Source: Isoetes taiwanensis
Taxonomy: Eukaryota; Streptophyta; Lycopodiopsida; Isoetales; Isoetaceae
Direction of reading: 5' to 3'
DNA: 64,000 nt
Assembly: GCA_021234155.1 (NCBI GenBank)
Contig: JAJEKV010000092.1
Span: 3,854,561-3,918,560 of the forward strand
Positions 7,295 through 63,554 of the stretch are shown in pieces; the stretch's first letter is position 1; every line of letters begins with the position of its first letter. The notes below the pieces were generated by a model, which ran no database searches, was not told where the DNA came from, and saw nothing but the letters and a program-made list of their open reading frames with translations. Position numbers and translations under genes: made by a program.

Positions 7295-7299
7295 TTCCT

Positions 7300-8600: not shown

Positions 8601-8939
8601 TCTTTCGACCCCAATTTGCCTTTTGAGCACATGGGATGCAGGGACTCCATCTCCAACGCCATGCCGGCCCGGGAACGCTGTTAGCCTCAATACGAACACT
8701 TGTTAGCCTCCATTCCCGCTTTGGCGTGTCTCCAATTCTGTAGAAGGCGGGGAGTTCCTATGTGGTGCGAGCAATTAATCCCTTCCCGTCCGGGCTGGCC
8801 TCACCGGGGGGGGCCTTAGCCTTAGCCCGAGCCTCCTTCTTCATGGAGGATGACTCTCCCCGGCCCATGATGGCTGATCGTGGACTGTTTGTGGGCGGGC
8901 CCTCCTTGGGTTTCCCCGGGCCGGCCCATCTTCCGTGGC

Positions 8940-9600
8940 CATGACTCCCCAAAGTTTGAGGGGTCTCCGGCTGCGGAAAGGGTGCCTAGAATTGAATTTG
9001 GGGACTCAAGAACGCGGGCAGAGCACCTTTTGGGCTAGTCAACGGAAACCCTAAGTGGTGGGGTGGGGGGTGTGGGGTGCGTTTCTAGCGAGCCCAAAGA
9101 ACAGGGTAGGGGTGCCCACCACCTTTGACTTTGACTTTGACCCTCGCCACTTTGCTTCTCATAGGTCTTTCCAAAGCTTTGTACAACACGACACCATTTA
9201 ACATGCTAACGCTGCTCTAATCACGCCAACGCTTCTCATAGATTAGAATAGAACATCACTCACAATTATTGCATGCCAACTACCGCGGTGTGGGGGGTTC
9301 GAGGGCTCCAAAGTCCGAGGGGTCTCGGCTGCCTCAAGGGTGCTTAGAATCCGGTTTGGGGGCTCGGAAAGGCGGGTGGTGGAGCCTTTTGGGGGTTTGG
9401 GGGTTTTGGGTCTAGAGAGAGATTGTAAAACCCTAGAGAGAGAAAGCCAGAAAGGGGTAAATCAAGGGGGTCTATGCAAGGGGAGTGAGGGCGCTAGAGA
9501 GAGGGAGCTGGGCGCTGTGAGGGCGCTAGAGAGAGGGAAAGAGAGGGAGCTGGGCGCTGTGAGGGCGCTAGAGGCTGTGACAGAAGGGGACATATACAAT
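8940..9600 (-). repeat. LINE 5' UTR repeats
   Basis: A segment of about 110 bp (from about 8944: CCCCAAAGTTTGAGGGGTCT) recurs from about 9308 in diverged form, a spacing of about 364 bp. A short repeat GTGAGGGCGCTAGAGAGAGG recurs three times at 9486-9575. Promoter monomers of this sort are common at the 5' ends of LINEs and LTRs. Confidence 0.5.
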
Positions 9601-9649: not shown

Positions 9650-10622
9650 TAGAATAAGCTGAATCACCTAATAATAGTGGTGGAATAGTTACCTGAACCT
9701 CTTGGTCAGTAGGCTGCCCCTTCTTCAGTTTTCTGCCACTCAGAGTCACCACTGGTTCTTGCAAAATTTGTTTGGAAGCAATTTTATTATAGATGGAGCT
9801 CTTCTTGAACTGGTTGGAATCATGGACTTAACCTGTTCTTGTTACACAAACATTTATAAACAATCTGCTATGTGTCACAATTCCTTGCATGAGACATGAG
9901 TGCCTCTTATGTCTGCTGTAATAGTCATCCCCATTATCCTTTTTTTTGGGTTTCCTCCATAAGAAGATGTGGGAACCGTCAACTGCACCATATATATTGG
10001 GCAACCCAGTTGCATCATGGAATTCCTTAATACACTGAGTTAATCTTGCTCCTGTAGGCATAGCAACAAACCGTTTGTATAGCATTGCCTTCGAGGTCAA
10101 TACAATAGTGACTTTCTTGGTATATTTTTGCACTGTTGCTTTCCCAACATAAAATCTTTGTCCCACATGTAAGGGCATATCCCCGCGTGCTAGAAAATAC
10201 AGAACCATAGCAACTGCTTTCCTTGGATCAACATGGGGCCTTACTTTAATCCCGGGCCTGACGAGATAAGGCACAATTAAAGCTACCAGTCTCTCAAATG
10301 TGGCCCTTTTCATCCTGTAAAATTGGTGCCACATATCGTCTTCAAAGGATGGCAGACAATTCCAAGCATGGTTATCGATATTATCCCACTGTGTTCTTTG
10401 CCTTGGAGCAATCCAAAATCTTCTTGGTGGTCTTCTAACCCTACTGGAACCCGATACCATTAAAACTGCAGATGCGCAAAAAAGCAAACCATTGTTATCT
10501 TCTAAAACTTCATCATCGAACAGGGTCATTGGGTCTTCGAGCTCGTTGAGTGCAAGTAGCTGCAAACAGTATCTCTGGAATGTAAATCCGAGTGTCAAAG
10601 CCCGAAAAAGCATAGCAATCAT
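9650..10622 (-). pseudogene. PIF/Harbinger transposase, N-terminal part
   Basis: A minus-strand frame of 264 aa (10622 to 9828) carries the HARBI1-type helix-turn-helix region (FERLVALIVPYLV ... VAMVLYFLARGD) and the first catalytic Asp in IYGAVDGSHI. A TGA then interrupts, but the same frame continues with VHDSNQFKKSSIYNK and the second catalytic Asp in IPPLLLGDSAY near 9660. After GDSAY the sequence changes to LINE. The remaining block with the catalytic Glu is at 3430-3757. Family knowledge: Harbinger transposases act with a Myb-like partner; one candidate lies at 1008-2113. Confidence 0.8.
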
Positions 10623-10980
10623 GCCAAGAATGACCGGATCGATGGTTTAGCGGCCGGAATTGAAAGCGTAGAGAGGCAAAACTAGAAATGAAATATCCCA
10701 CATAGGCTGCCGAACCAAGAAAAAATAGACTTGAATATCCCACAATTTGGCGTCCGAATGGAACGTTACGGTCAAATTATCCCACAAAGAACTCGTCGGC
10801 CGGAATGGATGCAGGATCGAAAATCCGGCAAACAGCAAAAATTGTGCCCATAACCGAGGCTGTTAAGCTTCGAGAGACAATTGTCTCTCCTCTCCTCCCA
10901 AAAAAATACGTACATTTAGGGGAGGAGCCGTATGTGACGAGAGATGGGTTTTTAAACACGCATGTGGCCGACGCGAGAGA
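10623..10980. other. Harbinger 5' flank with short direct repeats
   Basis: No gene. ATATCCCACA occurs at about 10690 and 10735, with a related ATTATCCCACA at about 10780, and GCCGGAAT occurs at 10652 and 10799. These could be subterminal repeats of the Harbinger element, but I could not pair them with a left terminus. Confidence 0.3.
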
Positions 10981-14533: not shown

Positions 14534-16037
14534 TCATTGCCTCCAGTGCCCGCTACTTGTGTATTCTGTAGCCTGTTCATATAGTGTGTGCAGTCCACGC
14601 CTGGAAGGCACTCTCATTAACAGGGTTTGGATCATCGAAATACCTAAACCTGTTTGAGAATGGGTTGGAGTTGCCTCTGCTTGGCACTCTAGATGGGTTG
14701 TTTGGTTGCTCTCCAAAGAGAACCAAGGAAACATTTTCCCTAGTTGCATTTGAAGGGTCCATCATCAATTTATAAGCAGCTTCAACTCTTCTAGGGCTAG
14801 CATTTTGACCATTAGCTGGAATAGACCATTGTGTGCTAAGATAGAATTTCCCTATCCTAATCATCTATGTGATCACAAATGTTAAGGACGGTTGCAAATG
14901 TCCTTTCAATTGGTACAAGACGAAGTGTCTTACCTTGAATAGTAAGTTTCGTGGATCAAGACAAATCTCATGTTTCAACTCACCTGCACCATATGGTGCG
15001 TACTTCTCTTGTCCCCTGTTTATATCATCGACTATAATATTATGCATCCTTTGAGCGTAATGGGATTTTCCAAAATCTTTCATATAGTAAGCTATCATAC
15101 CATCAAAGGTGTGCAATTTTGTACCACTTAGTGGGGCGCCCGTATATCGAGTCCGGGATGTGGTGTTTCCGGACAATTTGCCTATGGTGTTTCTGGACGT
15201 CCAGAAACACCCAATGCTTCTGGAAGTGGTGTTTCTGACCAAAAAGTGGTATTTCTGGCCAAAAACCAAGCGCGAAACTGCGCGGCGGAGCCAAAATCTT
15301 TGGTCGGATCCTTCTTGCAGCTCCCTGGACGGCTTGAAATGCTTCAAAAGCCCTTCCAATCGCTTTGCCTTCCTCTTTAACACTAGTTTGATGAAGAGAG
15401 GAAGTGATTTGAGCTCAGATAGAGCCGGATCAAGCAAAAAATGACCTAAAACCGTTGATTCTGGGCTTAAAACTGTGAAGTGCACAGTGGCTGATAACGG
15501 CGTCCAGAAACACCACAAAAAAAGTCCGGAAACACCACATCCCGGACTCGATATACGGGCGCCCCACTTAGTGTACGGCATATAACTTTTGCTCCTGCAG
15601 GCTTTGTGGTATCCCACAACATCGCTTTCTTTATAAGTGCTACTGCACCCCTAAGCCCAATTGTGCTAAGCTTACACACAGCTTTGAAATGGAGGTGATC
15701 CAAGTTTGATTCTCGTTCAGTTGCAACCATCCCCGCAGAGCAATGTTCCTGTAGGAATGTAGGAATTGATAGACGTTGTCTATCAACGTAGGGTCAATGT
15801 CTGTCCCTCCTATGCCAATGCTTACGGAGATCTCCCCTCCAACTGGGCCTTGGGTCTTGCGTACTTTCTTCCCTCGTCTAGCCCTCGGCCTTGTCGCTTG
15901 AACATCCTCGTTGCTAGAAGCATCTCTGCTTGCCCCTGAAGACGAGAAGATTGTGCCCTCTGACGTTTGGTAAACCATGGGTCTTTTATCTCACTGTCGC
16001 CCTTGTCGATGACAAGTGCTTGGGCTGCCATGCTCAT
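14534..16037 (-). pseudogene. HUH endonuclease (Replitron/CRESS-Rep-like), decayed
   Basis: Reading from ATG 16037 on the minus strand, the code passes through three frames. A basic Ser-rich N-terminus comes first. Then GIGGTDIDPTLIDNVYQFL leads to a one-base break near 15735. Then MVATERESNLDHLHFKAVC contains HLH (15689-15697), fitting the HUH metal-binding motif of Rep nucleases. Downstream, past a MITE, GMIAYYMKDFGKSHY (about 15099-15055) fits the tyrosine helix YxxKD of single-Tyr Reps, followed by INRGQEKYAPYG. Removing the MITE and one target copy restores the frame exactly. A TAG at 14865-14867 and a shift near 14580 follow. Family knowledge: such Reps nick and rejoin single-stranded DNA in rolling-circle replication or transposition. 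The motif order and spacing support the call; the exact family is my inference. Confidence 0.6.
15134..15564. mobile_element. 431-bp MITE inserted in the HUH-like gene
   Basis: Perfect terminal inverted repeats of about 41 bp begin GGGCGCCCGTATATCG. Flanking 9-bp direct repeats CACTTAGTG lie at 15125-15133 and 15565-15573, fitting a Mutator-type target duplication. A TTA target duplication with TIRs starting GTGGGG (Harbinger type) is also formally possible because the flank is palindromic. The interior has no coding capacity, though it contains short inverted copies of the TIR motif. Confidence 0.85.
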
Positions 16038-32276: not shown

Positions 32277-32331
32277 GTATTGCTGAAGCTGTGATAGAGG
32301 CTCAGAGACTGGAGGTGACATGCATCACCAG
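32277..32331 (+). other. Possible orphan exon
   Basis: A 55-nt open segment encoding about IAEAVIEAQRLEVTCITR lies between a pyrimidine-rich TTTTTACTCTTAG acceptor and a GTATAA donor. It is isolated, so weakly supported. Confidence 0.2.
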
Positions 32332-32565
32332 GTATAAAGCATGAATTAATTAATTAGAGAAATTTGGAATTCTCGTTTAGCATGAAATAGGTTCTTGGTT
32401 AGCCATATAGTGCAGAAACTACTAGCAACTGAGTAAAAGTTGGCATTTTTTAGTACAAATTCTACCAATGATTCGGCGTTGTTCAGAAATACAGTTTTTA
32501 CTGCTCATGTAAAGGTCCATCGTGAGTAGAATGCAGTAGTATGGAATGCTCTATGTTATCGCAAG

Positions 32566-32731
32566 AATCGCGAACGCGATCTTTCGCAGTTGAAAAGAGA
32601 CAAAATAATGAGCCTTTTATTAACACCATATGAGAGCATTACGTACTGGAAAGGTGCAGTGGAGTAGGCATAGCACAAACATTTCACTATTTAAAGCTTT
32701 GTATTTGCCATAGAGGATCGCGGCCGCGATT
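32566..32731. repeat. Two palindromes GATCGCGGCCGCGATC-type, 3' flank of ParB-methylase gene
   Basis: 32566-32581 reads AATCGCGAACGCGATC and 32716-32731 reads GATCGCGGCCGCGATT. Both are near-perfect 16-bp palindromes, just beyond the stop of the leftward gene. They match the cluster in the central promoter region and may mark the element's left end. Confidence 0.75.
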
Positions 32732-32846
32732 ATTTTCAACATTAAACATGCACCAAGTAATAGTAAAGACAAAAAGATACGGTAAAACATATTCCTGAAA
32801 CAAAAATTTCCATTGAAGGATGTAATGTACAATAGGGATGCAATTA

Positions 32847-35800
32847 TCATTCTTGTGATTGTGTTTCAGATACACTATCAGGTATCACACCCAATTCATT
32901 GGCAATGCGGATGACATGCGCTCTACCCAATTCCATAGCTTGTGTTGTGTCCATCTCTGAATAACCTGTGACCTTTGGAATCTCAACGCCCATGGCATTT
33001 GCGATGTGCTCCACATGTGAATCAGGCTCCACATTTTCACTATCGCCTGCACTAATCACGCCTATAAATTCCTTCTCCGACTCAGTAGCAATCTCGTGTG
33101 GATGAAAGATCTTCGGCTTCTTGCAGGGTACCTGATGCTCTTGTGTCCCAACAGACTCATCTTGGTCTGTTTCCATGTGCTGTACGCCCACGTATTCAAA
33201 CCTAGATTCGCCTGTCAAGAATGGCATATACACATCAAGCTTCTGGTTTAGTGCCCCTAGTTTTTGGAAAGTAGGTTCGAGGGCTTCAATACCTTTTTCA
33301 GTCGCTTCCAGCAATCGCTTTGTTTCTTGCATTCTCTCCTCGTAGCCTTGAGCATCGAGGTTATCCAAAATGACATCCAACCCTGATATATCTGTCTTTT
33401 GGGTAATACTGATGTCGGGCAGCAAAGGATTAGCCTCTGCATTCTCTGCTTTCTCCTCTTCTTAAGATTCCCCAGTAGTTTGACTGGCCATTTTCTCAAG
33501 CGTTTCCAAGAAGGACCTCAAGAAACGGCACACTTTACCTGAACTTTCAAAGGCTACGCTCTTTTTGCCTTGCATAAGAGCGACACGAGAAGCTGTCCCA
33601 GCCGAAAAGAAATCCAGGACGCAACCGTCAGTGGGCACCAGCTGATCAACAATATAATAGGCATATGAGGTTTTCAGCTGGCATTTCAATACAAGATCTC
33701 CTTCCATTGCTGCCCATTTGTATCTTGGTTTGCCTGTAAAAAGAGTTTGAAACTTCTTTTTTATCTTGTCATCGGCATCCTCATTACCTGTTAGCAGCAT
33801 TGGAGGCAATGGTGTTTGCTTAGGAGCCTTGCTGTGTGGAGATAGACGAAGCTCCAGCTCAGGTTGCAGAGGTGCTACACGAACGTCACTCCTGTTAATG
33901 CACATATGACTAATATAATACTGATATTCTTTCACCCTTCGTTTGCTCTCCCAACCCATTTCTTCATAAGAACCCAAAGACATGTGGCCACCTCCCTAAA
34001 TTTGTTTCCGACTGTACAAGCAATTGGGCAAATTCACAGAGCGCATAATAATAACCAAGTGATAAACTTTTGCAGTAGTCATGGTAGCTATCCTTGTAAA
34101 AAGGTCTGTGTATTTCTTGCAATCCCACACCTTGTTCATCCCTCGGATGTCAATAAATATCAATGTGGCATTCTCTGACACTGGGGAGGAAGTAGGGATG
34201 CCATCCTTTGTCACTGCTATGACAATATTTTTCTTTTCTTTTCTTTTCTTTTTCTAGCCTCTTCTGGCTTTAGAATATTTCTGATTGGCTCCAGAAAGGC
34301 TACAGGTAGGTTACCTAGTGTATGATCCTTGTTATAGTTAGCCTTCACATACTCTGTATCAGTATCTGATATATCAAGTATTCTCTGTTCAGTCAAATCA
34401 GAAAAAGCCTGAAGCAATTCCTCGAAGCTATCGACATCCTTTTGCAGCAAATTTGTGGCATAAGATAAAATTTCGCGCCTCATAAAAGTGAGGGTTCTGA
34501 TGTCAGTTGCCCGTTGTTTGCAATCAAATCTCCCGCTATACCCTGCCTGCACCTTTAAATACGTCTTGCCTTCTATTATTTCATCGAGCAGCTGTGACAT
34601 CTCTGCATTCGACATACCTCGTAGCAAACGAAGCCAGGTCTTGTTAAAGAAGTCTTTGGACGGCTTGTCCGGAAACTCACCATGGTCGTCACTGAGCTTA
34701 CGGTTCACCCACAGTCCGGCAACTTCCATTAACTTCTTGAAAACCTTCTCGTCCATAAAGATGAATTGTTTTTCATCTGCACTTTCAAAGTGGTGGTTGC
34801 AATTTCATGGAAATCCTGCAGAAACAAAGGTCATCAAGATCGCGGCCGCGATGTTGGTGAGTAGAAAATGAAGAAATACCTTCCAAGCTGAACTCGTAGC
34901 AGTCCCTATCGGTCCTTGTGGAGGACAGCCATAAGCCTTGTGCTGACGACGAAGTTGTTGCAGTTTTTCAATTAGTGGCTCTCTGTAGACGGTATTTGCA
35001 ATTACTTCGTTGCATTGAATGCTCAATTCTATATATTCCTTGTATGTAAGATTTCCGTTGAGCACTCTCGATCTTCTTCTAGCATATACTTTAGCAAATT
35101 CTAGTTGCTGCTCCAACTGGCCAACGACCGAACAAAGGAGTTGTGCCGCGCAAATACTGTGGTTGCCAGAAATAATGTAAAATTTCTTGCCCTTTAAATC
35201 CTCTGGATTGCTCCATGTCACCCTCCTCCTGAAAAAATGGACAACCATCAAGTCATATCTAAACAACGAATGTCCAAAAGATAAAGAATCAGTTACCTGG
35301 TAATGGGGTCAAATGGCACGACGTCAGCAGGCGTGAGGACCTCTGTTGGGTATGTCTTGAAGCTTTTAACCAGAGTTTGAACATGGTCATTTGAGCGCAT
35401 TCGGTGTGTCAGGTTTGCTGGTGCAGGTTCACAATCAAAAATAGAAATCTTGGTAAACCAGTTAACCCCTAAGGGGTAAAACCGTTTAAACTGTTCAAGC
35501 TTTTGAGTGGTCTGCTCTGCCATCTGCTTCCGGATTGAACTTCAACTCGATTGGAATGGCAGGTGCGTTTGGCCATGTCAACAACTTAGTAGAAGAGGCT
35601 TCCGTAATAGATGGGGGGGTTTGAGAATTGCTGGACTGCGGGCTATCGTCAGTGCTCAGATTTCGAAGGTTTATTTTGAAAGTAGTAAATTTTTTTGGAA
35701 TAAATCCACCACAGGTAGTGCTATCTGGGGCCTTTAAAGCAAGAGGAAGAGTAGGGTTAATAATACCGGAGGGGTTTATGGTGGATTGTGGTTCTTCAAC

Positions 35801-36843
35801 AACTTTTTTTGATGCTGAAGGCTCTCCCAATGTAGCAATTGGCTTCACACTTCTTTTCTTGGCCACGGCTCTGAGCCAATTGGTGTCCATCACCGACGGC
35901 ATTTTCTCGTCCCGAACTGCTTTCAAAGCACCGCTCGGAGGCTCCTTGTCTGTGGACAAACCATTTCTGCATGCCGAGAACCCTACCAAGATGTCTCTGT
36001 TTCCCTTTATACCTGACAAAGAGAGAGATTCGTAAGATGGCAACACCCAGCCATAACCCTTAGCTGATGTTGGGACGTTTTTCCCTGTGGCTGGCTTATT
36101 CATTTTGCTGGCTGTCATCATAGATGGGTCATAGTTGCGCCATTTCAGAATGTATTCCAGGAACTGCAATTGATGTGTGTCCTCGATGCTGCATATGATA
36201 GCATCTTGCACATTGTTCTTCGTGCCTTCCCACATTGCCACCACTATGCCAACTTGTTCAACGTCCTCAGCTTTCTTTCCAGTGCGCAGGAACAGGCACA
36301 GATCCTTTCTGCGGTCGCCACGAATGTGTGGTATTGCTTGTGCAATCTCTATACACCATTTCCTTTCGTTAGAGGGGGTTATAATACGGATGGGTTCGAC
36401 ATCCGGTCCACGAAACAGAGCGAGGGCTGTAAACAAAAGCCTCTGGTGAGTGCCTGATAGGCTGCATAATGTTATACAACGAAAAATATAAACTACTCAA
36501 GAGGACCGCGACCGCGATCCTTCAAGCAACTATACTACTACTCCACACTATCGCGGCCGCGATGTTTTGTAGCAGCTAAGCAGGGCAAGAAAACAAAATC
36601 ACTGCTCACGAACACCGGGGTCGCGATCCTACCGAGCTACTATACTACTACTCCACACCATCGCGGCCGCGTTGTTGTGTGGCAGCTAAGCAGGGCAAGA
36701 CTCAGCAAGACCGCGGCCGCGATCTTGATGAGCAGCTACAACAATCAAAACATAACAAAATCTAATAAGCAAGATCGCGGCCGCTATCTTGCTGAGCTGA
36801 AATGTCAGGATTTACCTTCTCTGAGGGAGTCCTTAGGTGCCAT
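32847..36843 (-). pseudogene. ParB-like / N6A-N4C DNA methyltransferase-like fusion gene
   Basis: Exon 1 (36816-36843, ATG 36843) splices in frame to 35297-36426, then 34880-35228, then from 34815 onward. An N-terminal region of about 300 aa precedes a ParB/sulfiredoxin-like domain: FTKISIFDCEPAPANLTHRM, VQTLVKSFKTYP, then, across an intron, FYIISGNHSICAAQLL, matching the G-x-H-R-x-x-A box. A helical middle part follows. Then comes a permuted methyltransferase-like domain: LIFIDIRGMNKVWD (about 34165-34125, where DPPY would be; here D-I-R-G) and C-terminal VLDFFSAGTASRVAL with SVAFE (33540-33620), resembling motif I DxFxGxGT and the acidic residue of motif II. The ParB-methylase order is familiar from bacteria and phages. 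Breaks: shifts near 35510, 34795 and a (TTTTC)n tract at 34232-34252, a TAG near 34000 and TAA at 33462. A degenerate DPPY suggests this copy is inactive. Confidence 0.6.
34838..34853. repeat. Palindrome inside intron 3 of the ParB-methylase gene
   Basis: GATCGCGGCCGCGATG, with further complementarity outward (CAAGAT / ATGTTG is partial). It lies in the short intron between 34815 and 34880, so it does not change the protein, yet keeps the same palindrome as the promoter cluster. Confidence 0.8.
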
Positions 36844-36861
36844 GGGATCGCGGGCGCTGGC
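36492..36861. promoter_or_regulatory. Iteron-like palindrome array, leftward promoter side
   Basis: Palindromes at 36504-36519 (GACCGCGACCGCGATC), 36549-36564, 36613-36628 (half conserved), 36659-36674, 36709-36724 (GACCGCGGCCGCGATC), 36773-36788 (GATCGCGGCCGCTATC) and a half-site at 36846-36861. The first four lie in two direct repeats of 109 bp (36492-36600 and 36601-36709), each with two palindromes and the shared text CTATACTACTACTCCACAC and GCAGCTAAGCAGGGCAAGA. Most lie within intron 1 of the ParB-methylase gene; the last overlaps its start codon region. GCGGGCGC half-sites recur at about 36941 and 36995. Confidence 0.85.
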
Positions 36862-36999
36862 TGAATACGAAAATCGGGTTGTTTAAGGGAGGTTCTTTAA
36901 GCCGCTGAAAGCTCGAAGGCGCTAGGCGCTTGAAGAATTCGCGGGCGCTGGAAATTCTCTGAGATGATATGGCCGGCCGTAAATTTATATAGAAACGCG

Positions 37000-38029
37000 G
37001 GCGCGGAAATTAAATGCCCACTAATCATAATGATGCGTTGATTATCGTGCCAGCCGTGATGACGCCGTACGTGCGGGCGCATTAATTTCACGCCGGCTGT
37101 ATTAATTACCGGCTGGCCGGCTGTATTGATTGCCGGCCATAAATGCGTCCGTGCGAAAATACCCAACAAAAAAAACACGCAATTCGTACGAGAGCTCTTT
37201 ATCGACTTGGACGTCCGCGTTCAAATTTCTCGCGTACAGTCAGTTAATTAAATGAACCTGACATGTTAAGCAGCCATAAAGGCCTGAAAAAGACACTAGA
37301 TTACGGATGGACAGCGACATGAAAATTTGAATTTGGTAACAAACATTTAGAGTGAAAGCGGGAATAGCCAATTCAAATTTGTTTGTTTTACAAGTCCTCG
37401 GAGACGCTCGAGCTGCGCCTACGCTGTGCCATGTTCTCCCAAGGTTTTGCTGCAGAATCCCGCATCAATTGAAGGCGCTGACAAGGGCGCTGATAATCCG
37501 CTTGCACTGCGCCACTATACATTTCGATTTCTTCCACTGCATCGAATTTAGTCTTTTGGCCGAGGTAAAAGGGCTATCCTGATGCCTATCTCTCAGTGAA
37601 GTGATCCAATAAATTTCATTGATAACTACTACCTGTTAAGAATGTGCTGATAGTTGATGATCAATAATACATAATTCATCCTTCAAGAATGTTTCCTTAC
37701 AGGGTTCTCGGCATTGAATTGATTCTACTGAAACAACACTATTTAATATATGGATTGATAAGATACCTGCTGATAATTTGGATTAGAATATTTAAAAATA
37801 GATGTTCTCAGCAAACCTGTGCACTCTGTTGTGTTTATTATACAATGTTCACGTGTTTCAAATACATGCTTTCTTTCTGCTTGTGGATGATACAAAACAT
37901 GTTTTGGTGGCACTACAGCTTCTGACGGGTCATTGGCTACAAGAAGACGTTGACGCCACCATTTCGAGACCTGTGAGGTAAGAGTAATGCTTTAGTGTAG
38001 AAGTCACTGCTTTAAGTCTTGTGCTCGAC
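37000..38029. other. Central part of the divergent intergenic region
   Basis: About 1 kb between the two divergent genes. GGCCGGC and GCCGGCTG motifs recur at 36970-37140; the rest is AT-rich and shows no gene. Confidence 0.35.
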
Positions 38030-38342
38030 GAGATTGCGGTCGCGAAGTCTTCAACCATCTACACTTGCTATTTACTTAAGAACTCCGATATATTTATCAA
38101 TATGAGTCGAAACCACATGCTAATCTCGACATGTGTTTTCGACTCCGAGAGAACGATATATCCGAGTTCTTAACTAAACAGCTAGTGTGGATGCTTGCAG
38201 AAAGCGCGACCGCGTTCTTGCCAATGCTCGATAAGATCGCGGTGGCGATAGTCCTTAGCATTTTTTTAGCTCCCAATTGTCGTTTTGTACTATAACTTTT
38301 AAAACAGAGCTCTATTTGCTTACAAACATCGCGGCCACGATG
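38030..38342. promoter_or_regulatory. Palindromes and large hairpin, rightward promoter side
   Basis: Palindromes at 38032-38047 (GATTGCGGTCGCGAAG), 38202-38217 (AAGCGCGACCGCGTTC), 38235-38250 (GATCGCGGTGGCGATA) and 38327-38342 (CATCGCGGCCACGATG). The first two sit at the ends of a long inverted repeat (about 38030-38220): the arms share CATC(T/C)ACACT, TTAAGAACTC and GAGTCGAAAACACATG-like blocks around a loop near 38125. The last site is 22 bases upstream of ATG 38365. Confidence 0.8.
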
Positions 38343-38364
38343 TTCACGATGTCTTGTTTGTAGG

Positions 38365-40646
38365 ATGGCGGATGTAATCTCGCTTTATCTGCTGGGGAAA
38401 AAGGTGGCCGAAGGAAGAGTCCACAACTTCGAGCGCCATCACAATTCGATTGTCCCGGAGGGTATGGTGGTTGTTTCGGTTGTGAATGTTTTGGATGGAC
38501 AGCTGCCACTACCAATTCCCGAGCAGGAAATAGAAAAACTTGGTGAAGCTGTGGGGAGTTTTGTGTTGTGGTACAAGGACATTGCTGGTCAGCTTATGAG
38601 AGAGGAAGAAGTTTGCACGCCACCAGGACAAATTAAACGCATAAACTGGCAGGTCGGAGGCAATGAGAGATTAGGCAATAATGAGACGAATCATGTGCAA
38701 GGGCTTTATAGAGATGAGTTAATTGAGAAGGCTTGCACACTCATGCATGAATGCTGCCACATGGCTTACGGGTGTGGTGTTATCGTTTTTGTCGATCCAA
38801 ACCATGCTGTTGCTGACGTGAAGTTAGGGGAAGGCTCGATAGCTGCTACTATCATGAGCCTATTTCCAATGCCTGAAAAGATCTCTATGTGCTGCCAAGC
38901 CTGTGCAGAAATGCCCCAGCTGCATGACCTTGTAAGATGGCCCATAGCCTTCGTGCTCGTTGATAACATTCCAGTTTCTACTCTCGTGGTTGCAGTGAAG
39001 GAGAAGGATGTGGAGAATAAACCTTATTCCATTAGACCAGAAATTGACATCACAAAAAAGAGACCTTACCACATGGTCAATCGGAGACCCAGGACACGTC
39101 CAGCACAGACCAAATGTGAAAGAAAAACTAGTGCTGAGGCTATTTTAGACTTCAGGTCATCACTGTGCTGCATGAAAAGATGTTGTGCAAATTTTACATC
39201 CAAGGAGATAGCTTGCATGAGAACCTTTTACTGGAACATGAAGTCCTCGGAGTGCACAACCTTTGCATATAACATGCTAGATCTTTGCTCTGAAAATGGT
39301 GTAGTCCGCAACCTGATGTTGAATAACAAACAGGTGTGCGTGAAAGCATGGCATAAATTTCCACTTTTTACAAGTGGAAGAAGCTCTTCAATGATGGCCA
39401 TAGAATTGCTGAGCACGAAAATAGTGGTTCTAAGAAGCCAAGATCTCATACTTTGGCTGGCAATGCTGTGCTATCTATGTTCATAGATGAAAACGCAGAG
39501 ACGATGCCACACCGCTCAAAAATTACGAGCGAGGGTAGCAGACAAAATGTTAAGAGGCTACCTTCAGTCTTGACTAAGAAGGATATACACCAAGAAGTAG
39601 ATGTTACCATTACAGAGATGACAGGCAAGGATATTTCTCCTTCGTCCTTTCTGTCTGCTTGGAAAGAGAATCATTCAGAGGTGGCAATAGCTACGAGGAT
39701 AGCATTTTCTAAGTGTAACACCTGTATTGTCATAAAGGAAAAGCTTGCTAAGACCAGAGATCCAAATGAAAGAAGGGTACTTGCAATGGAGAGAAAATCA
39801 CATATGACGGCCCAGATTTCATGTAGGAGCCTTTACTGGTCCTGGAGAGCTTTGTCTCATAGATCTCCTGAGCACGCTTTAACCATTATACATGACAAGA
39901 TGGATCAAAATAAGACCATGGTCCCTCGTCTAGAAAAGCTAGCAAAGTCTGTGTGGAGGGGTGAACGACTGAAGGTGAGTGTTACAGGTGCTCTCATGCA
40001 CGAGCATGGTATAGGTGCCTTGGGCCACTTCTCATTGGACCTCTGGCCTGATGATTCTAATTTTCATGTGGGATCCTTGAATCATACCTTGAAGACACTG
40101 GAGAATAAATCTGAGGATAATTGGGGCCATTTGAGAGATCTGAGATCGTCCCCGAAAAGCTGGCTTTGGGGTGGAGCAATTTTAAACACAGATGCCCTTA
40201 GGACAAAAATGGTAAATGGCAGTAGAAATGATTTTATGCCTCCTGCCAAGGGCCCTATGGTACCGAACAAGTTGCTTAGGAGGCTTTACTTGCAGCTAGA
40301 TAATTGCTCAGGTCAAAATAAGAATAGATATCTTTTCTCTTACTTGTCATACTTGGTTTGGTTAGGTGTCTTTGATCAAGTGCAGCTGGGATTCATGATG
40401 GTCGGACACACCCACGATGACATAGATGCCCTCTTTGGAAACTACTCTACTCTAATGAGAAGATTAGATGCATTGACTATTCCAGAGCTTATGCAACTCT
40501 TCAGGCAGTGTAGTTCAAAGTCTCCGTCACCTTACCTTGTGTCAGAGGTTCCTAATTGGAAGGAATTCGTGAAAGGTTTTATCCCTGATAAGAAGGACCG
40601 TTTATGTGGTCATTTGGAACCTCTACTCTTCATGGATCAAGATTAA
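38365..40646 (+). pseudogene. DDE-transposase-like protein (DUF7869-like C-terminus), one frameshift
   Basis: Two frames, 38365-39486 and 39453-40646, join through a single-base break near 39360. After the break the other frame reads TFYKWKKLFNDGHRIAEHEN and runs on. The N-terminal part (about 330 aa) contains a Cys-rich block (SSLCCMKRCC). The C-terminal part has a CxxC motif (FSKCNTCIVIKEKL), HDKMDQNKTMVPR, LQLDNCSGQNKNRY and MVGHTHDDIDALFG. These match an RNase H-like DDE pattern seen in uncharacterised transposase-like proteins of plants and animals (DUF7869-type, from memory). The D of LDNC and the acids of GHTHDDID are candidate catalytic residues. It stops at 40646, though coding-like sequence continues about 90 bp in another frame. 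It is divergently paired with the ParB-methylase gene. Host of the same element is inference. Confidence 0.65.
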
Positions 40647-40649
40647 CAC

Positions 40650-42240
40650 CATTTCTATAGCATTCACACAGATCGTTGTAGCTCAAGTAGCACTTGAAGG
40701 ATCGGATGTGCTCCGGACGAGGAGGCAAGGAAGCCATGGAAGATGAATGACCTCTACCACCGAATGGAGCTGCTTTTATAGTGAAGTAAAATTATTGATG
40801 TTCATTATTGGTGTAGATTGTAAGGTCATTATTGAGCTTGTACAAGTATCACGTACACGTACAAGTATAACACATAATTTGTATGGATATGTGTATGTTT
40901 GTGACCTCATGTATCTTGGGCTCGAGAACTAGGTGAAAGTATTGGTGCTTGAGCAAATTAGGTGTGCTTAAAATTCTCAAAATTGCGTTATTTTCTCCAA
41001 TTAATGAAATCATGCTTTATATATGTATATTTTTTTAAAACCTTTGGAGTAACCCAATTCAATTCCTAGGAGGTCTTCAACAACTATATATTTTACTAAA
41101 TATTTTTCTCTAATATGTACACCACCTTTTCCTAGGCACCGAAGGGGCCGAAAAAGTTTTGAGCTAACGCAAACCATTACATTCAACACTTTAAAATTAA
41201 ATTCCTCCTGAAACCCCCTTTGATTTGGGTGCATATTCACACGGGAAGTGACATAGGGCAGCGAGAGCCCCTTTTGTACTCCCTAAAACCGTATAAAACA
41301 TGTATGAAATTAACACCATTTAGTACATTGCCGCAAATGTTATAGTATTTTGCAAGCCTCGCTATGCAATATACCAAAACATGTATGAGAATACCCCACA
41401 AACAAGGAATGCAATTATGGTCCAAATTTTGCTGAATATCTCATTTGTTATTTCATCCTTGTTTTGTATAATTGATAGATTTTCAGCCTCCCAATGAGCA
41501 GGGCATGGTTGAGCAGGGTCTGGCCGTGGCTCCAGTTGCAGTAGCTCCACTTCTAGTAAAAGTAGTAGATTTTCTAAAACTGTATAATATATGTGTGAAA
41601 TCAGCACCATTTAGTACATTGCCTCAAACCTTACAATATTTTGCAAACCTCGCTATACAGTATACCCAAACTTGTATGAGCATATCTCTCAAATGAGGAT
41701 TGTTATCTATGGTCCAATCGAGGAATAACTTGCAAATATACCCATACAACAGCTCTCGATGCCCTAAGTCAACCCCCATGTAGCATAACACAGGGGGTTT
41801 CTTTGTATTTCTATACGGTTTTTGCTATGGCTTTGCTATGGTTTGGAGGGCGTATTTTGAGATCTACTAATCAGTACATCTAGAGTGCGCACCATATTTT
41901 CTTGTGAGTTTTGCAGGTGTTTTCCAAAGGTTTGGCTGGATATATATTTTCTTGTGTGTATGTATTTATTAAAACCCATCCAAACATCGATATTTGTATT
42001 TTAGAGCAATGAAAGAAAAATTTCCGTAACGGAAAGCCTGTCGGGCTTGTCATGTTTGCAAGCATCTGCCTGTGTATCTGCTAAGATATGCTTTATATGT
42101 CATTAACCAACAACCACATATTAGGTTATTGGCTTTCTGGATTTCAGCCAAAAACTCAACAGCCAGAGATTAGATTACTGGCTTTCTAAATTTCGGCCAA
42201 GAACCTAACGGCGACAAATTAGATTATTGGCTTCCATAAG
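40650..42240. repeat. Spacer with two diverged duplications
   Basis: A segment of about 150 bp beginning near 41287 (AAAACATGTATGAAATTAAC, then CACCATTTAGTACATTGCC) recurs near 41577 in diverged form. At 42119-42240 a unit of about 50 bp containing ATTAGATTA-TGGCTTTC and TTTCGGCCAA is repeated about three times. No gene is seen. Confidence 0.6.
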
Positions 42241-42314
42241 CAACATCAAAATAAACCAAAAATCCCTTAATCCAAAAATGGATAGCAAAACCATTACAAA
42301 AACACCAACACGAA

Positions 42315-44566
42315 ATGTTTCAAACTGAGAACTACATGTTGGGCTTAATTCAGTGCCCTTGCTTGCCTCCTAGGTCGAGCCATTTAGGCTACGCTGTAGC
42401 TTTGAACAAATTTAACTTGGGTAGATGTAGTTTCCGATTTTCCGCAGCGGCAGAACCTGCTGAGACTGCACACATTCAAGAAGAAAGCGCAGCAAACAAG
42501 GAATTGAAAAGGAGGGGAAGCACGCAGCTATTGAGATGGGCTAGGGCGCGCAGAAAATCTGCAAGGCGTTTGGAATTGAGATTTAATGAGGAAAATGGAA
42601 CTGCGGATTCAGACCAAACAAATGATGAATCTGAAGACGAAGGAGATTTTGGTAAAGATGGGGTGGATATGCCTGGTAAGGCAGTCTTTTTGGTGTCTGA
42701 TGGAACTGGATGGACTGTTAGTCATTCTGTGCAGGCTGCCTTGGGCCAATTTGAACACTGTCTTGTTGACAGAAACTGCTCAGTTAGTACTCATTTGTTC
42801 TCAGAGGTATGTTAAAAGTCTAGTTGGAATGTAATATTTGGCTTCATCTTAGTACACTTTTGTTCTCAAAATTCATAGTATCCTAAATATGGTTCATTAT
42901 TTATTAGCACTTATTTTTTCTCAGATGTATCTATAGTCATCTTTAAGTATAAAGATGTGTTGTTTAAGGAATGAAAGTGTGCTTGTTTGAATAAGTACTC
43001 AGTTATCCCCACACTATATATCTTGACTATAGAAGTGTTGAAATGTAATTGTTTGGCTCATTTTTTGCTCAGCATTTTTGTATTGTTATGACTGCAGGTG
43101 AATGAGATTGATAAATTGATGGAGATAGTCCGCCAAGCAGGAGAAGAATCTGCTTTGTTGATCTATACATTGGCTGATCCTGCCATGGCTGATGCTGCCA
43201 AGAAGGCTTGCCAAATGATGGCTGTGCCATATTTGGATATCCTTGGGCCCATCACAGAGGTCCTTTCAGCTCAGATAGGTGTCACTCCACTTGGACTTCC
43301 TCGAAATGCACCTGGAAGAAAGAGAGTTCTGTCCAGGGAATACTTTAAGCGGATCGAGGCAGTTGATTTTACAATAAAGCACGATGATGGAGCTTTGCCA
43401 AAAAATCTACACAAGGCAGACATAATATTGACTGGGGTATCCAGAACTAGCAAAACTCCGTTATCTACGTATATGGCACAGATGGGGTATAAGGTTGCAA
43501 ACGTGCCTCTTGTCCTTGGAATTGAACCTCCCAAGGAGCTATTTGAGGTTTCTCAAGATAAAATTTATGGATTGACTATAGATCCCAATTTCTTGAAATC
43601 CATTAGAACTTCTAGATACCTGCATCTTGGTCTTGCTAGAGATTCCAGGAGTTCTTATTTTGACATGGACTACATCAAGAAAGAGTTGGAATATAGTGGC
43701 GACCTCTTTAAAAAGAATCCTACCTGGCCTGTGATTGGTAAGTCCTTTTATCATGAAACTTTATCATTGCAACTTTCCTTAATTCTAACTCCACCTGCCA
43801 TAAACAATCAATTTTTAGCGTCTTTTCTTCTTTCTTGGACTTAAATGATATAGGTGATATGACATGTTTTTCCCCAACTGTTTCGATCTACTTCCTGTGA
43901 ACACAATTGATTCTGGACAGCGTTGAGGCCTATATTTAATGGACATTTTAGTGATAGGACACAATTGATCATAAATAGCACCTTAATTATCATAGTTTTT
44001 CAACTCCAAATTGAAAGTTTGGCATCCTTTTCCAATTATGATGACCACACAGTTATTATGTCATAGAATTCAAGGATAATCGCATCTTATGTAAGCGAGG
44101 CAGCTGCAGAAGCAACAAGCTGGGGTACAGCAGTAAGACTAACGTTATTGAAACTTCTATGGCGACTTCTAACTTGTTTTTGGACATCCATAACATTATC
44201 TTCTCTCTTGAGCAGAGCGAAGGCACGCTTCACCTTCCGCCATCCACTGAATGTTGAAAAGATTTTCAATTCTTTGCCCTTTGAGCCCAACACTCACCTG
44301 AATGAATGACATGATATATTTTATTATCACTGCCAAACTGGCTAGATCTTGAAAAGTTTTGACCAATTTGATTATGAGATTTTGACCAATTTGATTATGA
44401 GTTTTAGATGATGTTACTTCTACCTACCTTTTCATTTTACTAAATTGTATGATTTTTTGCAGAGGTCACAGGAAAAGCAATTGAAGAAACTGCGGCTGTA
44501 ATTCTCCGCATATTTCATGAGCGGAAAACCAAGCACGTAATGCCGCGCATCTCAAAACGATATTAG
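42315..44566 (+). CDS. RP1: Pyruvate, phosphate dikinase regulatory protein (chloroplast)
   Basis: Three exons, 42315-42806, 43098-43737 and 44463-44566, all GT-AG, give 411 aa, close to known plant RP1. The N-terminal region (residues 1 to about 110, Arg/Ser-rich, few acids at first) fits a plastid transit peptide. The kinase-phosphorylase domain (DUF299 family) begins [20 protein letters not shown] and holds the P-loop-like GVSRTSKT at residues about 277-284, [23 protein letters not shown] and the C-terminal [12 protein letters not shown]...PRISKRY. Family role: ADP-dependent phosphorylation and Pi-dependent dephosphorylation of a Thr on PPDK, switching it off in the dark and on in light. 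The first ATG after stops is 42315; an internal Met is possible. No break seen. Confidence 0.95.
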
Positions 44567-45900: not shown

Positions 45901-47600
45901 TATCTCCGTTTTTTTTTAGGCCAACTTTTTAGAGTTGCCATGTTGAATGGCAATTTTGTCAAGATGCCATTCTTTTGAAGGTTAAATTCTTTCTTAGCCA
46001 TTCATTAGAGCTGCAATAAACAAGCACAAAAACACACCATCATATATAATTCACACATAAAGCTTAAAGGCCTTCCTATTATAATTCAATAGCCCAAAGT
46101 TTACAATTGCACCATGCGGCATTGCTTATGATCCATCCAATTAGCATAGATCATCTCATAGTCTGCATCTGCCATGTCAGGCGATGATAATGATAAGAAC
46201 ATCAACATTTCAAGAGTTTTCAGATTCAAAGATTCTCGATCATCATCCTTTATCAAGTTTTGCCTTCGAAATCTGCATTCACATTCTACAGAAGATGCTG
46301 GAAGAACTAGAACTTGGAATGGAATAACCCAACTTGGTTTCCAAACTCTTTTAAACTTTTTTGTAACGGTAGTTCCATCACACTCTTGAAATTCATCAAA
46401 TTCCTCATCTGACATATCATCTTCCTCGTCTATGTCTGGTTCTGCATTAAGATCTAAGGCATCATTAGATGCTTCAATGTCAACAATGCTAGAGGTAGTG
46501 CTTCTTGCTCCTCTTTTTGCTTGAGACTTATGAAAAGCTTTGAATATATCTTGTTGTAGAGGATCTTTTTTGGGTCTTACCATCCGCACCAAAAAGAATT
46601 GGTAAAACAAAGGAGACAACATATGAAATAAAACTAATACAATACCTTTCACTATCTCTGGAAACAAGCGTAGAGCATAATCCGAAGGAAAAAATGATCA
46701 CGAGCATAATCCCAAGGAAAAAATCTCTGTTTTTAGAGTCTGGCAAAACTGGTAAGATTATTCTATTTATGCGGTTTGGGAGGAAAAAGTTGACAGATAG
46801 ATGACAGCCAACCGATTGTGAAGAATCGGTTGCATTTGGCTTTTTGCACATGACACTTTCTAGTGCAAATTGTGGAATAGTTTGCAAAATAGGAAGAAAA
46901 GAAGAAGAATTGATGGCAAATGGCAGTAATACATTTACATGAAGAAGAATTGATGGCAATAACACAGTCTGATCATTACCTTTTCCTTAAAGTTTGATCC
47001 AAATTCCAAAACCGATTTTAGAATCCGAGTTCACAGGCCAATCCAATCCGAGTTTGGCAATCTTCTGAGTTTACAGTCCGATTTTTTGGCCGATTCTTCA
47101 GAATTACATCATTAATCTGGACTTGTCTGGTCTAGAATGCGGAGGCATGAAGAAGATTTCGGAACTCTGGCCTAACCGAAGAGCAGAAGACTTAGGATCG
47201 TCCGGCAGCAGCGGGGGCAATTGGAAAAGAGCGGCAACTTGGCAAGACTTGAGCTCATCAACAATTTTTTCAAGATTCCCCCTTTCTTTTTAATGTTTAA
47301 TGTTGGTTGGTTTGCTATTAATTTCGTAGTATCTCATTAATTACAAATTAGTAATGGTATTTTGTTCCAATTGGGGTAGGGAAATAAATGAATAATAGAA
47401 AATATATGTACTAGAAAATAATTTTTTTTTTAACCTTGCCATTCAATTGAAGGGTTACATTTGCCAAAGCCGTTCAAGCTGAATGGCATTATTTTCTCTT
47501 GCCGTTCATTCGCATGGCCGAAATAAAAACCGCCGTTCTTTGAAGGGCCAAAGGCCTCTTGAATGGCATTGCCATGTTCAAATTTAAGGCCTGCAAAGGA
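45900..47600 (-). mobile_element. hAT transposon remnant
   Basis: The coding remnant at 46101-46667 is flanked by subterminal repeats of GCCATTC or GCCGTTC. At 45905-45990 they read TTGAATGGCA and GATGCCATTC; at 47440-47560 they read TTGCCATTC, GCCGTTCAAG, TGAATGGCATT and TTGCCGTTCATT, in inverted arrangement. I could not define exact ends or the target duplication. Confidence 0.5.
46101..46667 (-). pseudogene. hAT transposase C-terminal dimerisation region
   Basis: Minus-strand frame of 188 aa. After an acidic linker (DIDEEDDMSDEEFDEF) it reads VLPASSVECECRFRRQNLIK and DDRESLNLKTLEMLMFLSL, then ANWMDHKQCR. This matches the hAT dimerisation block (ASSxECERGFSxQN, LExLM, W..K.R), with the Cys/Arg changes typical of decay. 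The catalytic core upstream is missing or unrecognisable, so this is a non-autonomous or degraded copy. Confidence 0.65.
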
Positions 47601-51598: not shown

Positions 51599-53180
51599 TG
51601 TGACGCTCCCAGAACATATACGACGCTCGGGCGTATACATACGGGGACTTCCCCCTCCCATGGCACCCGTCTAACTCCGGCCATCTATGGTAAGATGCTC
51701 GAGTGAAGGACACAGAGGGGTCATTCGGCCCACGCCTTCAATGGGGCTCCTATGTCGCGGAAGCGTGAATACAAGGTCAGCATACAGCATAATCATATCA
51801 TAAATACCACCACGAAGGGTGGCACATCCATCCAACTGATAATAACAGAGAAGATACATTTAATACTAGAGAAAACAACCCAAACCCATGGTTCTACCCC
51901 GGCTCAGACTCCAGTGAGGATCGACTGACGGCTAGGTCTCAAGAGATCAGCAGACCAAATCTTGGCATGGCGTTGGCTGGCATAGAACATCGGCTAGGGT
52001 TGTCCACTCCATCCGCCCCTCCTGTGCACACTTTGCAGATGAGTCAAGTCATGCCATGGCATCACTATAGCCTTCCGGAGACGCAGACTCAAGGTACCAC
52101 CCTTCGAGCCTACTCCAGGTTTCATGAAGATCTGTCCGATGAGGCAGGTCGGGGAAGCGTCCCCTTCTATCACAGCGGTTCCATGGGTGAGTTAGAGAAT
52201 ACGTGCCGCATCAGCGACCCTCGCATCCGTACCCGACCTACTCCCTTAACTTTATCTTCAAAGTGCAGGATGCCCCATACGGGTCACACCTCTGCACCCA
52301 GGGAGTGTCAGACCCATACGCGGCCCTATACGTGACCGGCTATCAGGCCTAGCCCAATGTAGGAGTCCCAGGAGCCTTTTATGTTCGTGCAAGACCCCAC
52401 CCCCACTTCACCACTGCGTCCCGTCTCTGGTGCTAAGCAATTCCATAGCATCCACGACTCGGTGGTCCCTTGTGCACATGCCGCATCTAATGGGAATAAT
52501 ACAGGGCTCTATCTAGGAGCATACTACAATACATGGGCTCAGAGGTCTCTACCCCCCTTTAATCCCTGCTTTACGGAAGCTGACAGAGATACTTTCATAG
52601 ATTCATCCATCCTTACTTAACAAAGCATAATCCATAATTGAAATATAATCCTAAATATCAAAGAAGGGTTAATCCTAACAAAGATAACCAGAGAAGACTA
52701 ACTGAGGCACTATCCTAGAAGCTCAAGCTAGACTACCCACTAACCCGAGTTTCTGCTAGAACCGTTATCATGGGGCACCTCCATCTTTCAGCAACTTGGG
52801 TGTTCAGCAACAACTTCAGCAACTTGGGTGTTCAGCAACAGCTTCAGCAGCTTGGGCGCTCAGCAACAACTCCTCCTGGCTCGATTTTGGGGCCAAATGG
52901 GACAAGGGTTCAATTTGATGCCCCAAGTTAGCATTCCCATGCTGGCCAATCGAATTTGGCCAAGTGGCACCTTCCTAATTAATCTATTATCCTAATTAAG
53001 TCAATTAGATATTATTTCCTTAATTATAGGTGATTAACCTTTAATAATTAATTTAGCATAGCTAAATTAATCCCTTTTAGGTCAACCCCCTAGGTTAAAA
53101 TACCCCATGGTGGCGTATCTTTACTGGGTGACGTGTCAGTATATTTATACGTATACCGTATAAATACTTGAAACGTCACA
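51599..53180. mobile_element. 1.58-kb TG...CA repeat, solo-LTR-like (copy A)
   Basis: Begins TGTGACGCTCCCAGAACATA and ends AACGTCACA. Flanks CACTA and CAATA are one base from a 5-bp duplication. A palindromic TATA-rich stretch (TATTTATACGTATACCGTAT) lies near the right end, and a tandem repeat of about 32 bp (CAGCAACTTGGGTGTTCAGC) occurs three times at 52775-52870. It is homologous, in inverse orientation, to 62081-63554. It is nested in the LTR element. Open frames inside (51967-52335 and others) look incidental. Confidence 0.7.
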
Positions 53181-62080: not shown

Positions 62081-63554
62081 TGTGACGTTCCACGTATTTA
62101 TACGGTATATGTATAAATATGCTGACACGTCACGCAGTAAGAATACGCCACCATGGGGTATGTTAACCTAGGGGGTTGACCTAAAAGGGATTAATTTAGC
62201 TATGCTAAATTAATAAGGGGTTAATTAAGGGAAAGACACCTAGCCAAATTCGATTGGCCAGCAGGAAACTGCTAATTTGAGCCAGCAAATTGGATCCCAA
62301 TTCCCATTTGCCCCAAATCGATTTCAAGGAGAGGAGCTGCTGGGCGCCCAGATTGATTGAAGATGGAGATGCCACATGACAATGGATCTAGCAGGAATTC
62401 GGGTTAGTGGATAGATTAGCTTGACATTCTAGGGCTAGCGCCTCTGTCAGTCTTCTCTGGGTGTCTTTGATTATGATTAACCCTTGTTTGATAGTTAGAA
62501 CTATTCTGAACTATGGATTATGTTCTGTGATATATGGATGGATGTATCTTTGGTAGTATCTTTGTTAGTTCTTCCGAAAAAGCAGGGTTTAAGGGGGGTA
62601 GAGACCTCTGCGACCTATGTTCGTTAGTATGCTCCTAGTATCTCCCCTAGTACCCAGTAATTGCGGCCTGTGTACAAGATCCCACCGAGCTGTGGAATCT
62701 ATGGTATCATTGAAGCACCAGACAAGGGGCCGTAGTGATGAAGTGTGGGGTGGGGTCTCGCCTGAGCATAAAAGGCTAACGGGACTCCTTCAGTGAGCTA
62801 GGCCTAATAGCTGGCCAATGAACCCGGCCGGGTATGGGTCTGACACTCCCTGGGTACAGTTGTGTGAGCACCCTGTACTTTGAGTAGACTTAGGGGAGTA
62901 AGTCGGGTATGGGTGCGGGGATCGCTGATGCGACACGCATTCTCTAGCTCACCCATGGATTCACTGCGACTCTGGGAAGGGACACTTCCCTGACCTGCCT
63001 CATCGGACCGGGGAGTAGTTCCGAAGGGTGATGCCTTGGAATTGCGTCTCCTGAAGGCTACAATGACGCCATAGCTTGAATCAGCTCATCTGCAAAGTGT
63101 GCACAGGAGGGGCGGATGGAGTGGACAACCCTAGCCAATGTTCTATGCCAGCCAACGCCATGTCAAGATTCGGTCTGCTGTTCTCCTGAGACCTAGCCGT
63201 CAGTCGAACCTCACTGGAGTCTGAGCCGGGGTAGAACCTTGGGTTTGGGGAGTTTTCTCTAGTATTAAATGTGTTCCCTCTGTTATTATCTGTTGGATGG
63301 ATGTGCCGCCCTTCATGGTGGCTATTTATGATATGATTATATTGTATGCTAACTTGTATTCACGCTTCCGCGACATAGGAGTCCCATCGAAGGCGTGGGC
63401 CGAATGACACCTCTGTGTCCTTCACCCGGGCATCTCTCTATAGATGGTCCGAGTTAGACGGAGGGCCCTGCTCATGGCGAGTTGGTTGCCATGGGAGGGG
63501 AAGGTCCCCGTATGTATACGTCCGGAGCGCCGTATATGTTCAGGGAGCGTCACA
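62081..63554. mobile_element. 1.47-kb TG...CA repeat, solo-LTR-like (copy B, inverted)
   Basis: Begins TGTGACGTTCCACGTATTTA and ends GGGAGCGTCACA. Read on the minus strand it follows copy A (51599-53180): GTATACATACGGGGAC near one end, the TCGCGGAAGCGTGAATACAA region, CACTCCATCCGCCCCTCCTG, and the GGTTAAC/CCATGGTGGCGTA block near the other. No target duplication is visible (AACTT against GTAGT). No PBS or PPT lies beside it, so it is a solo LTR or another terminal-repeat element. Confidence 0.65.

Follow-up and report, generated by a model that had tools for sequence, protein, structure and literature searches.

The DNA transposons of the Sola1 superfamily produce 4-bp duplications and encode a DDD transposase. 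One Sola1 element of the brown alga Ectocarpus, Sola1-1_Ec32 (21.5 kb), was described, in the part of PMC12477816 (Genome Biol 2025) that deals with it, as carrying on the opposite strand a gene for a protein of 1104 amino acids with ParB-like and N4C/N6A methyltransferase domains; the same part of that work proposes that such proteins bind their own transposon and modify it epigenetically, and refers to transposon proteins of the same kind from green and from red algae. Here we analyze a stretch of 64,000 nucleotides from the genome of Isoetes taiwanensis (assembly GCA_021234155.1, contig JAJEKV010000092.1, positions 3,854,561 to 3,918,560 of the forward strand), which is referred to below as the window and gives the coordinates used throughout. 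Positions 32337-41017 of the window are a damaged copy of a multi-copy, two-gene DNA transposon with terminal inverted repeats, in which a DUF7869 gene on the plus strand and a gene for a putative ParB-like, methyltransferase-derived protein on the minus strand lie head-to-head within one pair of ends. With the Ectocarpus case this kind of ParB-methyltransferase transposon is on record already, and the window element very probably represents a further case of it.

As far as the published description of Sola1-1_Ec32 goes (PMC12477816), the window element resembles it in combining both domains in one protein (1171 amino acids by predicted splicing in L017, a copy in which the gene is uninterrupted) that is encoded on the strand opposite to the transposase, the evidence for the ParB-like half being the weaker. 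It differs from the algal element in length (about 10.5 kb versus 21.5 kb) and in its host, a land plant rather than a brown alga, and the two are likened by description only. The 4-bp duplications of the window family are a further likeness to the Sola1 superfamily, as is the partner gene shared with the Ectocarpus Sola1 element. Bacterial-type amino-methyltransferases have also been described in eukaryotes as the bdelloid N4CMT, which has a chromodomain, and as the N4-methylcytosine (4mC) enzyme of Marchantia, which is said to lack extra domains (PMC8885841); unlike the transposon-borne gene of the window, neither is described as transposon-borne in the relevant part of that paper. TnpA of CACTA, MURB of MuDR, and VANC of VANDAL elements are accessory proteins, several of which bind element repeats or counter silencing; the protein considered here is likewise a second element-encoded protein and, unlike them, appears to be methyltransferase-derived.

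The left terminal inverted repeat of the element, AAGCATGAATTAATTAATTAGAGAAA (32337..32362, plus strand), pairs with the right one (40992..41017, minus strand) at 23 of 26 bases. The score of this pair is 21, compared with a maximum of 15 in 60 dinucleotide shuffles, and in a control with 76 pairs of equally sized segments only two pairs, the element aside, scored above 13; both stem from a separate inverted repeat whose arms are near 53 and 62 kb. The repeats are flanked by the target-site duplication TATA (32333..32336 and 41018..41021), and 4-bp duplications were found in all four examined copies that have both ends, namely the window copy, L022 (AAAA), L025 (TATG), and L013 (TTCC); the fifth examined copy, L017, is without the left end. 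Terminal inverted repeats together with a target-site duplication of fixed length (4 bp) are what distinguishes a cut-and-paste DNA transposon, and both are present here. When the genome (1,658,258,908 bases in 1110 contigs) was searched with the DNA of 33400-35600 and the best 40 of 1192 candidates, the window itself among them, were scored, each of the 39 other matches was 87-97% identical and 35 of the 39 extended over at least 1.9 kb. With this many matches in the same genome, the locus is more than a chance match. In 13 of the 20 copies that were fetched, homology starts at 32330-32339, i.e., at the left repeat. The extent of 32560..40750 given in the first-pass annotation of this DNA is corrected to 32337-41017, and its proposal that both genes belong to one mobile element is borne out by the terminal repeats, the 4-bp duplications, and the many copies.

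Among the copies examined, two retain both ends without a large deletion, and their lengths are 10.4 and 10.6 kb. Relative to L025, about 2.2 kb is absent from the window copy at one point (40632), where L017 and L022 hold the remaining part of the transposase gene and small related open reading frames (ORFs). The right part of the element in L017 contains a pair of related minus-strand ORFs, one of 98 amino acids (9774-10067) and one of 93 (10480-10758, both in the numbering of the oriented copy), and L025 has apparently three copies of this segment, as judged by DNA match. A Pfam scan with the 98-amino-acid ORF of L017 gave no match; the small duplicated ORFs are possibly a third, duplicated gene.

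The plus-strand gene (38365..40646) contains the peptides LDNCSGQNKN and GHTHDDIDALFG that had suggested a transposase, and the proposed search with the DUF7869 profile (PF25273) gave an E-value of 1.6e-39 and 135.9 bits, the curated cut-off being 26. Among 6108 candidates, 106 homologs were found at an E-value of 0.001 or below, proteins of Ceratodon and Physcomitrium among them; the gene thus resembles eukaryotic DUF7869 proteins, including those of mosses, with 39% identity to the closest. In an alignment with 24 of the 106 homologs, the invariant columns include both D residues of IHDKMD, the one in LDNC, and those of an HTxxDxD segment. These D columns would fit a DDD-type nuclease, and we infer that the DUF7869 protein is the transposase of the element. 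The transposase region is present in 12 of 21 window-family copies within the stretch read, the other alignments ending earlier or being interrupted. A genome-wide profile search for DUF7869 gave 9902 first-look candidates, and all of the best 150, which were scored, exceeded the cut-off; if most of the 9902 are real, DUF7869 has undergone a very large expansion in Isoetes taiwanensis.

The second gene, on the minus strand, has four exons according to predicted splice sites. Exon 1 (36816..36843) begins with MAPKDSLRE, exon 2 (35297..36426) encodes the N-terminal region and the first half of the ParB-like domain and is frame-shifted in the window copy, exon 3 (34880..35228) encodes the remaining half of this domain (FYIISGNHSICAAQLL), and exon 4 (32847..34815) encodes the linker, the methyltransferase-derived domain, and the C-terminal tail, with stops and frame shifts in the window copy and an uninterrupted frame in L017. 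The peptides that had originally pointed to a ParB side (SGNHSICAAQLL) and a methyltransferase side (LDFFSAGTASRVAL and SVAFE) are indeed found in exons 3 and 4, respectively. The head-to-head arrangement of two broken genes was also described correctly: the minus-strand gene is broken by stops and frame shifts, and the transposase gene by a frame change near 39357 and the loss of its 3' part, which leaves the protein without its C-terminal part.

The pattern of N6_N4_Mtase enzymes consists of the catalytic motif [D/N/S]PP[Y/F/W] and FxGxG. The window family departs from both: DIRG occupies the position of the catalytic motif in 21 of 21 copies, and FxGxG is present in none of the 21, 17 of which have FSAGTA. 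The degeneracy of the DPPY-type motif that had been noticed in the window copy is real, but it is not damage to this one copy, since DIRG is common to all 21 copies. In this family the catalytic function has probably disappeared and a DNA-binding role persisted.

The window-family gene is identified as methyltransferase-related by way of sister families in the same genome, which match PF01555 significantly and have the same divergent layout. All of the best 150 of 1443 candidates from a genome-wide PF01555 search, which were scored, exceeded the cut-off, with E-values from 1e-12 to 3e-17. Of the 12 best loci, LDAFSGSGTT, and with it FSGSGTT, is found in 11 and D[LI]PYG, whose second position is not proline, in nine. 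The protein of one sister family (C1077), itself pieced together across breaks, aligns with almost all of the PF01555 profile at an E-value of 9.3e-20, the sister-family score being 72 bits. A search with this protein among 5.8 billion proteins gave 44 matches at an E-value of 0.01 or below. The top match is R1sor_009704 of Riccia sorocarpa (E-value 3.8e-54, 96% coverage), and the next is eukprot Gb_14868 (E-value 6.7e-24), a protein from which the ParB-like region and a large share of the methyltransferase are absent and whose Gb_ prefix we take to denote Ginkgo biloba; the remaining matches, where named, are bacterial DNA methyltransferases. Relatives of the sister protein thus occur in Riccia and probably in Ginkgo. 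The Riccia protein itself matches PF01555 with an E-value of 1e-11. Phage fusions of a ParB/sulfiredoxin domain with a methyltransferase, such as NVP1213O_71 of Vibrio phage 1.213.O, likewise combine an N-terminal ParB-like domain with a permuted N6/N4 methyltransferase, and a profile built from 49 phage ParB-methyltransferases matches the C1077 and Riccia proteins (about 2e-13 each, calculated for a database of one sequence); unlike the phage fusions, the plant proteins have a long linker, introns, and GNHS where the phage proteins have GHGR, and are without a PF02195 match. An alignment of the Riccia protein P0107 with 32 other proteins from the C1077 search was left unused, its conserved columns having been judged to place the catalytic motif on the ParB part. 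A permuted N6-adenine/N4-cytosine DNA methyltransferase joined to a ParB-like domain would be the ancestor of the element's second protein, and the sister families with D[LI]PYG and FSGSGTT probably methylate their element.

The association of the two genes, which would be doubtful if they never co-occurred elsewhere, was looked for across the genome and recurs. A DUF7869 hit lies within 20 kb of 24 of the 150 methyltransferase hits, compared with 0.54 expected under uniform placement of the top 150 of each kind, and these 24 pairs are a lower bound because each list holds only the best 150 (of 1443 and 9902, respectively). The two genes are divergent in 22 of the 24 pairs and in all 17 pairs that lie within 7 kb. 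A place beside DUF7869 is a further link between the gene of the L017 family and those of the sister families.

In the ParB-like part, SGNHS is present in 21 of 21 window-family copies and GGNHS in the C1077, L127, L128, and Riccia proteins, and the order of elements, which ends in an LT..EA...A..N helix, resembles that of ParB. When the L128 domain was compared with 38880 PHROGs, the top two were ParB-like partition proteins (E-values of 0.0066 and 0.015). The motif, the domain order, the two PHROGs, and the same architecture published for the brown alga weakly suggest a ParB-like assignment, and to this extent the domain proposed at the outset is retained as ParB-like.

The palindrome ATCGCGGCCGCGAT occurs 15 times in the window with at most three mismatches, 13 times in the element and twice outside it (15146 and 15539), and none of the 13 element palindromes is in a predicted exon of the window copy. 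Two lie downstream of the ParB-like gene (32567 and 32717, spanning 32567..32730), one within intron 3 (34839..34852), six in intron 1 (36505, 36550, 36614, 36660, 36710, and 36774, spanning 36505..36787), and four upstream of the transposase start (38033, 38203, 38236, and 38328, spanning 38033..38341). Four other copies have 14, 14, 14, and 10 palindromes, all of those in the stretches read being inside the element, and the exact 14-mer is found at 961 sites genome-wide, the reversed control at none. Within three non-coding stretches, CpG is retained in 794 of 863 cases in the palindromes and in 1236 of 1505 cases outside them (Mann-Whitney p 5e-7). In the 6.2-kb C1077 stretch, GCGGCCGC is absent and 19 matches to another palindrome, GTGTATTCCGGAATACAC, are present (at most five mismatches), mostly in two clusters. 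The window family and that of C1077 thus differ in their palindromes as well as in their proteins. The 10-bp core of GTGTATTCCGGAATACAC is present at least twice at 7 of the 12 best methyltransferase loci.

Selection was assessed by comparing the ratio of nonsynonymous to synonymous variants (N/S, about 2.5 under neutrality) between variants common to at least two of the 21 window-family copies and singletons, with p-values that are indicative only because the copies are related. For shared and singleton variants, respectively, the ratio is 0.33 and 1.81 in the ParB-like part, 0.38 and 1.97 in the linker, 1.09 and 1.88 in the methyltransferase part, 1.00 and 2.08 in the N-terminal part, and 2.00 and 2.55 in the C-terminal tail (Fisher p 1.7e-10 for the second gene overall); in the transposase it is 0.68 and 1.50 (p 0.011, 12 copies). 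The family thus probably depended on both genes during its period of mobility, the constraint being strongest in the ParB-like part and weaker in the methyltransferase part.

We hold with moderate confidence that the window contains a damaged two-gene cut-and-paste transposon whose ParB-like/methyltransferase-derived protein would bind the palindromes of its own element and regulate or protect the element, the window's family having dispensed with catalysis. The ParB-like part would recognize these palindromes, which are concentrated in intron 1 and ahead of the transposase gene, in the way ParB recognizes parS, and this recognition could lead either to regulation, via the divergent promoters, or to protection of the element. 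The sister families with D[LI]PYG and FSGSGTT would additionally methylate the element, whereas in the window's family the enzyme function would have been lost and DNA binding kept. A more far-reaching version, which we offer tentatively, is that land-plant transposons encode a sequence-specific N4-cytosine or N6-adenine methyltransferase that is aimed by its ParB-like part at family-specific, parS-like palindromes; a mark other than 5-methylcytosine on palindromes that contain CG would then denote self, switch the divergent promoters, and block host silencing by 5-methylcytosine, and some families would have shed catalysis and kept recognition.

The subterminal repeats of CACTA elements are binding sites of the transposase, and the main rival to our reading is that the palindromes are likewise bound by the DUF7869 transposase while the ParB/methyltransferase-like gene has some other task. 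Four palindromes immediately precede the transposase gene and two others are separated from the left end by 230 and 380 bp, as this rival would have it; most palindromes, however, are in introns and in the center of the element, the right half past the start of the transposase has no site with at most three mismatches in any of four copies, and the second gene is constrained, most of all in its ParB-like part, and is therefore no mere passenger. We consider transposase binding rather unlikely on this balance. That the window-family protein is an active methyltransferase with a non-canonical catalytic motif that methylates the palindromes is improbable: the persistence of DIRG and FSAGTA among the copies and a shared-variant N/S in the methyltransferase part below the neutral value speak for activity, but both motifs deviate from the family pattern and the constraint is far weaker than in the ParB-like part. 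Finally, several of the fetched copies are interrupted by other DNA, which would suit a chance nesting or adjacency of two unrelated elements; this, like bacterial contamination as the source of the methyltransferase gene, is very improbable, since both genes lie inside one pair of ends, the divergent layout recurs as described, the gene has predicted introns, and its copies are in long contigs. Moreover, prokaryotic matches span only 9-48% of the sister protein, and scans with the Riccia protein P0107 gave no relative among viral contigs and a single, methyltransferase-only match among prokaryote genomes. Contamination, nested insertion, and chance were therefore rejected, being contradicted by the repeated divergent layout.

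A self-binding, methyltransferase-derived protein, the account we prefer, also has to accommodate a number of results that weigh against it. The window copy itself fails the first refuting condition named in the first-pass annotation: nothing in its two flagged regions matched a methyltransferase or ParB significantly, and significance was reached only through relatives, so that the methyltransferase ancestry stands through the sister families and not in the window copy itself. The window copy scores 12.2 bits against PF01555, below the cut-off of 26.7, the read-through of its second gene did not match this profile, and the methyltransferase part of the window family did not match the profile of phage ParB-methyltransferases. 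The L017 protein is related to the sister families by hhalign with an E-value of 0.0017 over 251 columns at a probability of only 15%, and by hmmsearch with both segments in the sister-family order at a score (6.3 bits, E-value 1.4e-4 for one sequence) that 1 of 501 decoys exceeded. The structures predicted for the window methyltransferase part and for P0107 have a predicted local distance difference test (pLDDT) score of 34 and 33 and are unusable. As for the ParB-like part, PF02195 matched neither the window, the L128 domain, the Riccia piece, nor any genome stretch at an E-value of 1; among Pfam families the L128 domain comes closest to DUF6551 (E-value 0.011, under its cut-off); and the phage ParB profile and a PDB sequence search found nothing, which is why we call the domain ParB-like rather than ParB. 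Two of the 24 gene pairs are not divergent, and the family specificity of the palindromes was observed in a comparison of two families only. The greater retention of CpG in the palindromes is possibly biased because the palindromes were picked in the window copy.

Other searches gave little. No direct homolog of the window ParB-methyltransferase protein was found at an E-value of 0.01 among 7997 candidates scored, and viral-contig scans with the window protein yielded no relative. With the methyltransferase part, tblastn against plasmids gave seven hits, all DNA methyltransferases, and against phages five, of which two are a methyltransferase and three a tail sheath protein (E-value 5), the best phage or plasmid E-value being only 0.3-0.6; with the window ParB part, tblastn against phages and plasmids gave nothing. 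An hhalign comparison of five plant ParB-like sequences with the phage ParB profile gave a probability below 1%.

Several further features lie elsewhere in the window. A long inverted repeat (51628-53180 and 62081-63524) consists of seven blocks that are 72-94% complementary, with about 9-12 kb between the arms, and may represent a further large element bounded by long terminal repeats. A Replitron HUH endonuclease-like match on the minus strand (14865-15650; PF21859, E-value 8.7e-6) is just below the curated cut-off. Weak matches to DDE_Tnp_4 (9828-10646, minus strand; E-value 2.4e-4) and to the hAT dimerisation domain (46101-46697, minus strand; E-value 0.008) are probable remnants of other transposons. 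A GC-rich block with a high CpG ratio extends to about 8.9 kb (56-64% in 4001-9000, compared with a window mean of 43%) and contains ORFs that by eye resemble long interspersed nuclear elements, e.g., 6686-7297. About 1.2 kb past the element lies a Kinase-PPPase gene (42255-43844, plus strand; E-value 3.1e-68 for its second part).

As far as seen, the land-plant members, the pairing with DUF7869, the family-specific palindrome arrays, and the catalytic loss with the ParB-like part kept are apparently new, and none of the last three is mentioned in the description of Sola1-1_Ec32; this novelty is provisional because the green and red algal cases entered the comparison through the Ectocarpus paper. 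The occurrence of 4mC and N6-methyladenine in eukaryotes is debated and the source of the enzymes responsible is open. The genome of Isoetes taiwanensis holds 150 scored methyltransferase loci of 1443 candidates, and concrete candidate target sites can now be named. The paper describing this genome states, in its account of the sequencing, that nanopore reads were used (PMC8566536), and any available raw signal would allow a defined palindrome to be inspected for marks directly. The known range of this kind of transposon partner protein would thus widen from algae to land plants, where a branch that is without the catalytic motif and has a constrained ParB-like part may separate recognition from methylation.

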